Virus record (IMG/VR): IMGVR_UViG_3300028422_001961
Location: 1-27,004 of that record
Direction: 5' to 3' (one strand)
From: a virus
Length of the DNA: 27,004 bases
The notes beneath the pieces are model-generated. The model was not told the origin of the DNA and ran no database searches. It was given only the letters and a program-made list of their open reading frames with translations. Positions 1,304 to 17,522 of the stretch are shown in pieces (the stretch's first letter is position 1; every line of letters starts with the position of its first letter). A program made the position numbers and the translations under genes.

Positions 1304-1608
1304 TAATCATCACTCCTAATCTGAGTGATCGCCTGTATTACCTTATCGTATCCAACCATAGCAGACAGCCAGCTTAACGCCATTAGAGCAATCAAATATA
1401 CGACGTATGCTGCGTCAAATGCCAGGTTTTTGATCAATGCATAACATACTCCCACCAGTGCAGATAAAACGAGAGAAACGCCTCCTGCAAGCAGATTGGA
1501 GTAATACTTTTTCCCGAGCTCATCCAATGTTGACTTGATCCCCTGAACAAACAGTGTCGTAAACACCGATACGATAAGTAACCCTAATAAAAATAATGAT
1601 AATGTCAT
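1303..1608 (-). CDS. Putative holin (three membrane segments)
   Basis: 101 residues with three hydrophobic segments at about 2-22, 38-60 and 66-86, and a short polar tail ending RSDD. Size, topology (class I holin-like) and position immediately before the endolysin support a holin, which would open the membrane to let the endolysin out. The start overlaps the previous stop (ATGA) and the end overlaps the endolysin start (TAATG), so translation of the lysis genes is probably coupled. Ribosome site GAGG lies eight to nine bases upstream. The motif near the C-terminus (SAMVGYDKVIQAI) recurs, as I recall, in clostridial prophage holin-like proteins; no experiment supports the function here. Confidence 0.7.
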   Translation of the reverse strand: MTLSLFLLGLLIVSVFTTLFVQGIKSTLDELGKKYYSNLLAGGVSLVLSALVGVCYALIKNLAFDAAYVVYLIALMALSWLSAMVGYDKVIQAITQIRSDD

Positions 1609-15774: not shown

Positions 15775-16731
15775 TTATTTGATCTTTACATTCGTGAACT
15801 TGCCGGCTGCCTTCGAAGCTTTTAGTGCAATGGCTGCAACCATTTCGACTTCACCAGTCTTTACTGCGCCTGCAGTGCTGAAATCAGGCAGCCATGACTT
15901 TACTGGTGCCTGCCCGGCCATTGATACTCCATGGAGTCCATCCAACCCAAGTCTGCCAAAATATAAAGACGAAATACCAGTTGTAACATTTGTTGCAATG
16001 ACATCATCATTGGATCCAGCTTTTGCTCCCATATCAACAAGTCTGATGCCATTGTATGTTTCTACCTGCTGCCCCCATGAATCCTTTGTCTCATTGTATT
16101 TACCGGCGAGTTTTGCACACAACTGGATAACAGAAATAAAATCTGTATTACCAGCAATGAAAGAAGGTGTTCCATCCAGTTTTTTTAGAAACTTGTCAAG
16201 GTAGAACATGAATGTTACGTAATTTGCTTCAATCAGTGCTGCTGTTGACATATCTAAGGTTGAATCCAGTGAGAACTCTGTGGTCGATCCAGTAACTGCT
16301 GAATCCAAGCCATCAAAAGCATTCTCGTCAGATGCGCTGTCACCATTGATAAACGTATCATTGAACAAGGCTCTTGCTGCTTTGATTTTCTGTGTCATCT
16401 GAAGATCTACCTCTGATACAATACCGCCCATTCCTGCGATAATTCTATCGATTTCAAATGCACCGCCGAACACTTTAAGTTCACATGTGTGTTTTTCTTT
16501 GGATACTGTCGACGGAACATACTCACTATTCACAGCACGAAATGTAGCTGTTGGCTGTGTGTTAAGTCTTGTATATCCGTAAGTGAGCGTTGCTCCACCG
16601 CCTGTTGGTGATACTGCATCATCAAACGTAATGTTATCAAGAATGTAACTCGATTTTCTAAATTCATCGATAACTCCCATCTGTAAATCATCCTGCACAT
16701 TCTTTTGTGCTTCTACTAAAGTAATAGCCAT
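15775..16731 (-). CDS. Major capsid protein (HK97-type fold)
   Basis: 318 residues. AITLVEAQKNVQDDLQMGVI, SSYILDNITFDDAV, GATLTYGYTRLNTQPTATFR, LKVFGGAFEIDRIIAGMGG and ARALFNDTFINGD are the landmarks of a widespread Firmicutes capsid family with the HK97 fold (E-loop region about 40-70, spine helix about 105-125). It is the main shell protein and follows the scaffold gene 14 bases downstream. No delta or protease domain is visible, so shell assembly relies on the separate scaffold. Start ATG at 16731. Confidence 0.92.
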   Translation of the reverse strand: MAITLVEAQKNVQDDLQMGVIDEFRKSSYILDNITFDDAVSPTGGGATLTYGYTRLNTQPTATFRAVNSEYVPSTVSKEKHTCELKVFGGAFEIDRIIAGMGGIVSEVDLQMTQKIKAARALFNDTFINGDSASDENAFDGLDSAVTGSTTEFSLDSTLDMSTAALIEANYVTFMFYLDKFLKKLDGTPSFIAGNTDFISVIQLCAKLAGKYNETKDSWGQQVETYNGIRLVDMGAKAGSNDDVIATNVTTGISSLYFGRLGLDGLHGVSMAGQAPVKSWLPDFSTAGAVKTGEVEMVAAIALKASKAAGKFTNVKIK

Positions 16732-16745
16732 AACCTATACCTCCA

Positions 16746-17390
16746 TTATTTTTTCTGATAGTGAGAAGCAATTGCATCTTTCATCGATACAGTTTTATTC
16801 TCACTTGTGTTTGCTGCCGGCGTAATCCCACCTATTCTGAATCCCGGCGCACTTTGATTGTTATTATTTTGCTGAGCAGGTTTTAGTCCCGGAATATCTT
16901 CAAGTACCTTATTTAAAGCTTTCTTCACAGCTTCTTTATCAACTTTACCATCCTGTCCCTTAACATTGCTAAGGTCAGCCATTTTGATTACATATGGTAT
17001 TGTTTTGCTGTCAATCTCAAGCCCAACAGCTTCTACAGTTGCAATACTGTTAATCTCTGAGGTGTCAGCCTTTGATTGCAGTTCAGTGATCTGGGTCTGT
17101 AATGCTGCTACATCAGGGCTATTCTTTGCTTTTTCATCCTTGAAAGACTTGATTGCCTTGTCCATTTCCTCCTGGCTGAGTCCCTGTTGCTTAAAGTATC
17201 CTTTCAGGACTTGTTCCTCCGCTACGTTTTGTTTTCCAGTAACCAAATTTGCCAGTTTTTCATAATCAATAGCGGGTGCGGCTGTCTGCTGCTGCTGTTG
17301 TTGCTGTTGCTGCTGGTTTCCCTGATCTCCCTGTCCCTGATCTCCTTCTGCAAAAAATTGAATGTTCAATGGTAATAAAGATTTCTTCAT
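16746..17390 (-). CDS. Capsid scaffolding protein with poly-Gln tract
   Basis: 214 residues. The start KKSLLPLNIQFFAEGDQ contains the N-terminal signature (LNxQxFAE) shared by scaffold and capsid proteins of Firmicutes phages. A run of ten Gln (about 26-35), encoded by alternating CAA and CAG, is followed by helical, charged sequence (YEKLANLVTGK, VLKGYFKQQGLSQEEMDKAI, KDEKAKN, a likely coiled coil about 95-120) and a C-terminal Asn/Gly-rich part ending ASHYQKK. It directs shell assembly and is lost or cleaved afterwards. ATG at 17390 has AAAGGAG eight bases upstream, immediately after the third hairpin unit of the leader. It is the first gene after the tandem terminators. Confidence 0.85.
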   Translation of the reverse strand: MKKSLLPLNIQFFAEGDQGQGDQGNQQQQQQQQQQTAAPAIDYEKLANLVTGKQNVAEEQVLKGYFKQQGLSQEEMDKAIKSFKDEKAKNSPDVAALQTQITELQSKADTSEINSIATVEAVGLEIDSKTIPYVIKMADLSNVKGQDGKVDKEAVKKALNKVLEDIPGLKPAQQNNNNQSAPGFRIGGITPAANTSENKTVSMKDAIASHYQKK

Positions 17391-17404
17391 TTCTCCTGCT
17401 CCTT

Positions 17405-17480
17405 TCAGTTGTAAGAGTGTCTCTCTTTCTCAGTTGTCGGGTGTCTCCCGTGTTTCATCAGTTTTCAGTGTGTCTCACCG
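17405..17480 (-). promoter_or_regulatory. Three tandem AGACA-loop hairpins in the scaffold/capsid leader
   Basis: On the minus strand three pentaloop hairpins share the loop AGACA and a G-C closing pair while their stems differ yet remain complementary: CGGTG/CACTG (17480-17466, one G-U), CGGG/CCCG (17450-17438) and AAGAG/CTCTT (17427-17413). Each is followed by a spacer and AACTGA. Loops begin 29 and 24 bases apart. The last AACTGA abuts the AAAGGAG ribosome site of the scaffold gene. This looks like a protein-binding RNA array; its ligand is unknown. Confidence 0.75.
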
Positions 17481-17496: not shown

Positions 17497-17505
17497 ATTA
17501 TGTCA
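17497..17505 (-). promoter_or_regulatory. Candidate extended -10 promoter for scaffold-capsid genes
   Basis: Minus strand TGACATAAT: TG, one base, then CATAAT (5 of 6 to TATAAT). It lies just past two terminators and would start RNA near 17490, about 100 bases before the scaffold ATG and just ahead of the hairpin array. No good -35 is seen; the T-run of the terminator occupies that place. It overlaps an inverted repeat (TATGTC ... GACATA, 17499-17522) that could bind a regulator. Confidence 0.45.
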
Positions 17506-17522
17506 TAAGCATTTTGGACATA
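17499..17522. repeat. Inverted repeat overlapping the candidate capsid promoter
   Basis: TATGTC and GACATA, perfect 6-base arms 12 bases apart. One arm covers part of the candidate -10. Such a symmetric pair fits a dimer-binding operator, but AT-rich 6-base arms also arise by chance. Confidence 0.35.

Follow-up and report, generated by a model that had tools for sequence, protein, structure and literature searches.

Repeated hairpins in phage scaffold-gene leaders track a single helix of the scaffold and probably serve in its translational autoregulation

What reads a row of three small hairpins that ends at the ribosome site of a phage head scaffold gene? The question is raised by IMG/VR virus record IMGVR_UViG_3300028422_001961, of which positions 1 to 27,004 were analyzed (27,004 nucleotides, hereafter the window). 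The window is a prophage head region with its genes on the minus strand. The original prediction had described three AGACA-loop hairpins on that strand at 17405–17480, each followed by AACTGA, with the last tail at the scaffold ribosome site, and this description is borne out by our analysis. The three hairpins (the array) form the last 80 bases of a leader that lies in a gap of approximately 360 bases between the minor head and scaffold genes. The tails of all three follow the pattern A(A/C)AACUGA, and the third abuts the sequence AAGGAG. A scan of the whole window found no further AGACA hairpin with a stem of at least 4 bp on either strand. We propose that the array is probably a set of cis-acting binding sites through which free scaffold protein represses its own translation.

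Each of the three window hairpins, when folded alone, forms as drawn, and the whole leader folds modestly better than shuffled sequences (z −2.0 and −1.2). Thermodynamics alone is therefore insufficient, and the case for structure is a comparative one. When the NGACA sites in the last 130 nucleotides of the leaders were taken without regard to stem (n = 171), 77% had a stem of at least 3 bp, versus a mean of 14% and a maximum of 22% in 1000 trials in which the 3′ arms were shuffled. The loops at these sites were only AGACA, UGACA, or CGACA, and 36 distinct stems were present among the units. RNAalifold, applied to 22 aligned leaders, recovered all three hairpins unprompted, with both-sided compensatory changes in 8 of the 11 pairs. 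The covariation score on the named structure was 0.504, versus 0.152 (sd 0.024) for shuffled and no more than 0.136 for slid controls; relatedness inflates such scores, and the slid controls retain that relatedness. These comparisons confirm the array as an RNA structure, far above chance. The original prediction had preferred RNA structure to DNA iterons, and the compensatory stem changes across phages uphold that choice. Repeated units at similar spacing could also be DNA iterons or a product of chance, but to this we assign almost no probability, given that the stem arms vary yet remain complementary rather than being conserved as duplex over the whole length of the repeat, that arm shuffles never reach the observed pairing, and that the loop occupies a single-stranded position in every copy.

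Each unit pairs 3–5 bp around an (A/U/C)GACA loop and continues into a single-stranded, A-rich tail that ends with ACUG or A(U/C)GG. In many phages of Gram-positive bacteria, two or three such units follow one another until the Shine-Dalgarno sequence is reached. The three AGACA units and the G-C closing pair shared among them, both features of the original prediction, hold for the window; elsewhere, relatives carry two or three units, the first loop base may be A, U, or C, and the closing pair differs (GTGC-AGACA-GCAC is common). The first loop base varies together with the tail, and the first two loop bases could pair with the tail in 167 of 176 units (95%). This loop–tail pairing was above shuffles (P 0.0003) in 15 hand-picked sister leaders, a curated set uncorrected for relatedness. 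One hypothesis is that every unit folds as a small pseudoknot, rich in A, with loop bases 1 and 2 paired to the tail.

The distribution of the array was followed by several routes. A search by pattern for three consecutive GAGACAC motifs returned about 17 noncoding arrays with differing complementary stems, all directly before a scaffold gene; other GAGACAC arrays (coding repeats and transposon-like repeats), with stems identical or poorly paired, were rejected as unrelated. A scaffold search with a single protein returned one locus only (L059), which has no array, so an alignment-based search was needed. This scaffold-alignment scan, which was blind to the array, gave 80 loci (79 leaders after near-duplicate removal). 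At least two AGACA hairpins with a stem of at least 4 bp precede the scaffold gene in 42 of the 80 loci, and nearly all of the remainder have either shorter stems or units in which a UGACA or CGACA loop is followed by A(U/C)GG. Among 57 distinct strong homologues ascertained through the scaffold, 56 carry one or more units within the final 130 nucleotides, and 53 carry two or more. Two units are found in Anaerostipes phages AC844P1-3 and Streptococcus phage Javan351, and one in Solobacterium phage SMO_1P. A covariance model (R1), whose large searches were strictly filtered and missed two-unit forms, matched 7 of 397 same-family genomes: six carry an intact array, in each case preceding an array-type scaffold, and the seventh carries a decayed relic; in 398 genomes across the phylum it found the window's own copy only. 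The relic (L285, approximately 1470–1590, minus strand) is a leader in a prophage remnant from which the scaffold gene has been lost, with two of three hairpins damaged. Sampling is biased to Bacillota gut phages, and the phage collection held no near DNA relatives of the window. Related arrays with stems kept complementary are accordingly present before homologous scaffold genes, the opposite of what the original prediction had named as its refutation, and in the genomes searched their position before array-type scaffolds is exclusive.

The array does not follow the capsid protein. Homologues of the major capsid protein were found at 44 viral and 14 genomic loci, and the array is absent from all 58 (the covariance model found none in the 51 searched), so conservation together with the capsid protein was rejected. 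The scaffolds at these loci are of another type, the array-type scaffold profile matching 1 of 56, weakly, and their leaders hold other structured elements, including hairpins with ACUGAA or other loops and A-rich tails.

Two RNA forms are distinguished within the array family. In form 1 the AGACA loop is accompanied by an ACUG tail (129 units) or ACAG (7 units), and in form 2 U/C-GACA loops are accompanied by A(U/C)GG in 35 of 35 units. Across 52 phages, form changes number 2 on the scaffold tree, 5 on that of the upstream head protein, and 8 on that of the capsid protein. The best of the scaffold columns that separate the forms all fall within residues 46–64, inside the first predicted scaffold helix (helix 1, residues 43–68). 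G(T/A)L(A/S)AKE helices occur together with A(U/C)GG tails in 15 of 15 scaffolds, GKQ-type helices are paired with ACUG tails, and the GRMKAT helix (L062, L157) is found with an ACAG tail in 5 of 6 units. When trees were compared over the same 43 phages throughout, with cleaned loop/tail labels, the number of loop/tail changes was 1 for helix 1, 6 for residues 72–172, 6 for residues 1–41, 3 for the upstream head protein, and 8 for the capsid protein, whereas shuffled labels gave about 10, with a minimum of 6–7. A single clade for form 2 was rejected on the rest of the scaffold (approximately unbiased test, p-AU 0.0006), on the capsid protein (5e-42), and on the upstream protein (3e-5). Finally, helix 1 predicted the tail type in all six scaffolds that had not been used (L289, L290, L291, L293, L297, and L298); one loop in L290 is AGACA, so the tail is tracked better than the loop. 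In these comparisons loop/tail type matches scaffold helix 1 and not the rest of the scaffold or the capsid protein. Since it follows one scaffold helix and not the capsid protein, scaffold autoregulation becomes the best supported of the readings that the original prediction had offered.

Several observations weigh against scaffold autoregulation. Helix 1 lies only about 125–200 nucleotides into the scaffold gene, so the leader and the 5′ part of the gene could travel together by recombination. Residues 1–41, between leader and helix 1, do not track loop type, which argues against joint transfer, but this segment is short and of low complexity, and its signal is weak. Only 25 residues underlie the helix-1 tree, many of which are the very positions that discriminate the forms, and the upstream head protein retains some association with loop/tail type. 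At least one array-type scaffold (L269/L292, with a GKQ helix) lacks the array, as does L059. A fold search with the scaffold structure model (mean predicted local distance difference test score, pLDDT, 75; predicted template modeling score, pTM, 0.44) returned no significant match and no known RNA-binding fold. Some of these points fit the reading in which the units are recognized by another factor, whether a host protein that binds RNA or some other protein of the phage, and the link to helix 1 reflects joint inheritance. The proximity of leader and helix 1 and the partial association of the upstream protein favor it, and, since other leader-like classes precede other scaffolds, a host factor could read those as well. 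We nevertheless consider it rather unlikely: residues 1–41 track loop type no better than chance, the tail type of the six new cases was called correctly from helix 1, and phages with the array or a variant have Anaerostipes, Streptococcus, and Solobacterium among their hosts, which would require any host factor to be widespread.

A leader that acts without a dedicated ligand is a further alternative. Short stems and A-rich unpaired tails that reach the Shine-Dalgarno sequence could leave the ribosome site accessible and shield the 5′ terminus of the scaffold–capsid mRNA, an mRNA that needs high-level translation. In 63 of 73 cases the leader is preceded by a terminator-like hairpin and U-tract, of the sort expected where transcripts meet, approximately 90–150 bases before the scaffold start and within the expected late operon; none was recognized by the scan in the window. 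An enhancer or mRNA-stabilizing leader is nonetheless improbable. The AGACA loop and ACUG tail persist while the stems diverge, and a change in the loop is accompanied by one in the tail, so the pattern looks like recognition rather than mere openness, and a generic enhancer would not track one scaffold helix.

The terminator-like hairpins also bear on the suggestion, made in the original prediction, of boxB-like antitermination. Several short leader hairpins, beside terminator-like hairpins in most leaders, could be boxB- or put-like elements acting on RNA polymerase, but we regard this as very improbable. The terminator-like hairpins lie before the array and not after it, so the array is transcribed only once they have been passed, and the array extends as far as the ribosome site. 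The match, moreover, is with the scaffold and not with an N-like protein, and boxB loops are GNRA-like, unlike the AGACA loop. Lambda-type boxB is a short hairpin beside boxA that precedes the terminators to be read through, and the array differs from it in its loop and in the position of the terminator-like hairpins; no systematic search for boxA was made. Given that the array stops at the ribosome site, downstream of the terminator-like hairpins, control at the level of translation is the simplest reading. The proposed reading helix is part of the protein that the first gene encodes, so the model needing the fewest assumptions is negative feedback exerted by unassembled scaffold, for which P22 is a precedent. 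In this model, unassembled scaffold would bind the units via helix 1 of a conserved helical domain, several subunits would sit side by side on the units, and, since the last tail touches the ribosome site, bound scaffold would block initiation. As scaffold is drawn into procapsids the sites would be emptied and translation would restart. Binding by the scaffold, an effect that represses and does not activate, and the tie to assembly are inferences of this model. The features of the window on which the model is drawn are collected in Table 1.

Table 1. Head genes, leader elements, and scaffold segments in the window
Feature	Coordinates	Strand	Basis or remark
Portal	21038-19515	-	
Minor head protein	19349-17754	-	
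5′ leader element: hairpin UGUC-CAAAAUGCUUAU-GACA, then A-rich stretch	17501..17520	-	Sequence
Unit 1: hairpin CGGUG-AGACA-CACUG (17480-17466) + tail AAAACUGA (17465-17458)	17458..17480	-	Sequence, single-unit fold, covariation in relatives
Unit 2: hairpin CGGG-AGACA-CCCG (17450-17438) + tail ACAACUGA (17437-17430)	17430..17450	-	Sequence, single-unit fold, covariation in relatives
Unit 3: hairpin AAGAG-AGACA-CUCUU (17427-17413) + tail ACAACUGA (17412-17405)	17405..17427	-	Sequence, single-unit fold, covariation in relatives
Scaffold ribosome-binding site AAGGAG, 8 bases before ATG 17390	17399..17404	-	Sequence
Head scaffolding protein, 214 amino acids, PHROG 2303	16746..17390	-	ATG at 17390
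Helix 1 segment, residues 42-66, proposed RNA-reading helix	17193..17267	-	Tracks loop/tail type
Scaffold C-terminal tail SMKDAIASHYQKK	16746-16790	-	Resembles GP20-type scaffold tails
Major capsid protein, PHROG 212	15775..16731	-	

Connector genes follow the major capsid protein in the window. In the leader, the 5′ hairpin is found at the same place in many relatives, with GUC/GAC, GCC/GGC, or CUC/GAG arms and often a CGAA loop. A possible pseudoknot between the loop of this element and a downstream UGCA does not exceed chance in a general test (4.5 bp versus 4.3 bp in shuffled sequences), although single 5′ elements show suggestive pairings (CACG/CGUG, CGCG/CGCG, and, in 80alpha, CGUGCU/AGCACG). 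A hammerhead reading of CUGAUGA in the window leader was rejected as coincidence, no matching GAAA/stem arrangement being present. At the position occupied by the terminator-like hairpin in other leaders, four loci have tRNA-like T-arm sequences, such as CGGGGUUCAAGUCCC in an acceptor-like stem (L121, approximately 130–175, and L062, L255, and L256, approximately 60–130 bases before the scaffold start). ARAGORN called no tRNA at these sites or in the array loci tested; from their sequence they could possibly be an RNA-processing site. One phage contig also carries a Skipping-rope RNA (L261 916–995; RF02924, 58.7 bits), and the C-terminal extension of the window's minor head protein has HNHPKG..S..D, which recalls JAB/MPN-type metalloproteases.

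The scaffold itself appears modular. Among those found, only the window and L206 combine an array-type scaffold with the window's capsid family, and both scaffolds end in a KDAI tail, like the GP20-type scaffolds paired with this capsid. The C-terminal tail therefore appears to track the capsid, and helix 1 the leader, which would be expected of a protein built from a capsid-binding tail and a separate RNA-reading part. The tail SMKDAIASHYQKK looks swapped in from GP20-type scaffolds that go with the same capsid family, which would make the window scaffold a natural chimera. At the N-terminus, LPLNIQFFA|EG (17390–17343) resembles the L27-type Prp cleavage motif, a site known from the 80alpha scaffold, and is common to many relatives (comparison with PMC5744158). 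The scaffold gene at MZ503613 15048–15683 (L279) is annotated "putative major capsid protein."

Leaders of sister phages show elements of their own. Nine (L003, L011, L019, L023, L025, L030, L034, L035, and L058), approximately 60–130 bases before the scaffold start, have CGUC..GACG with a second complementary strand (UUGU/ACAA, CUCC/GGAG, or UUGUU/AACAA), then a GG-ACUGAA-CC hairpin and AAAAAAUAAUG. They have no Rfam match at the gathering score, and the arrangement looks like an undescribed pseudoknot RNA. Before more distant scaffolds (L300–L307), the last 60 bases hold a GCC-UGUCGA-GGC hairpin with a GAAACGG tail.

As a tentative extension, it is possible, though we would not yet lean on it, that tailed phages of Gram-positive bacteria share a general protein–RNA code in which the N-terminal helical segment of each scaffold reads its own leader class (the AGACA/ACUG and UGACA/AUGG arrays, ACUGA loops, GP20-b, and the 80alpha form), with the scaffold sensing the state of assembly and adjusting its own dose. 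The amounts of scaffold and capsid protein have to be matched, and we know of no RNA target identified for the scaffold protein of these phages. The array is a defined and repeated candidate target, for which a reading helix is predicted and which comes in two natural variants of specificity. Binding, exchange of specificity, and regulation are therefore open to direct tests; the array and scaffold could also make a small orthogonal RNA–protein pair of potential use as a tool.

The array was compared with known regulatory elements, beginning with those read by other kinds of protein. CsrA/RsmE sites present GGA in a hairpin loop, which is absent from the AGACA, UGACA, and CGACA loops. In the RNA phages MS2 and PP7 the coat protein, a structural protein, represses a gene via a hairpin near the ribosome site. 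The array would work like such a coat-protein operator hairpin, but it consists of two or three hairpins before the ribosome site of a DNA phage rather than one hairpin over the start codon, and the proteins are unrelated.

Scaffold genes provide closer parallels. Autoregulation of the P22 scaffold gene was reported in 1985 (Wyckoff and Casjens, as cited in PMC5744158). Control of that kind, in which a head scaffolding protein, while unassembled, lowers its own synthesis, is what we propose here from sequence evidence; the phage and protein are distant. In Staphylococcus phage 80alpha (DQ517338; L288 437–502) the leader before the scaffold gene has a pseudoknot-like GUC(CAAAACGUGCUGAU)GAC-AUAAAAA-GCACG, followed by a single AGUC-GACA-GACU hairpin, a AUAAAUGG tail, and AGG. 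By its sequence this is likely a single-unit relative of the array, to our knowledge not previously described. It differs in having one unit only and in its scaffold, which is remotely similar; our scaffold profile weakly matches the solved scaffold protein 6b0x (E 0.02).

The nearest named element is GP20-b (RF03003). The original prediction knew of no named element with this form, and no family in Rfam 15 fits the array, but GP20-b is its sister in position and layout. Covariance scans with GP20-b found no match, not even a weak one, in the window (E ≤ 5), in 15 array loci, or in 11 array/variant loci (E ≤ 1); it was found before the scaffolds of GP20 type in L010, L020, and L050, sister phages that share the window's capsid family. 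Both are cis-elements directly before phage scaffold genes, and their layout is similar: in GP20-b a 5′ GUC..GAC element with UAAAA precedes a hairpin with an A-rich tail and a short fixed motif. A 5′ hairpin similar to that of GP20-b is present in many array leaders, with pseudoknot pairing near the shuffled level. GP20-b differs in its single 3′ hairpin with the tail UAAAAAAGCgUA, whereas the hairpins of the array number two or three, have NGACA loops, and are followed by ACUG or A(U/C)GG tails; the type of scaffold downstream differs as well. The array thereby places Rfam's unexplained GP20-b RNA within a wider set of leaders: phage scaffold-gene leader RNAs were already known as a kind, and the array is a new member of it.
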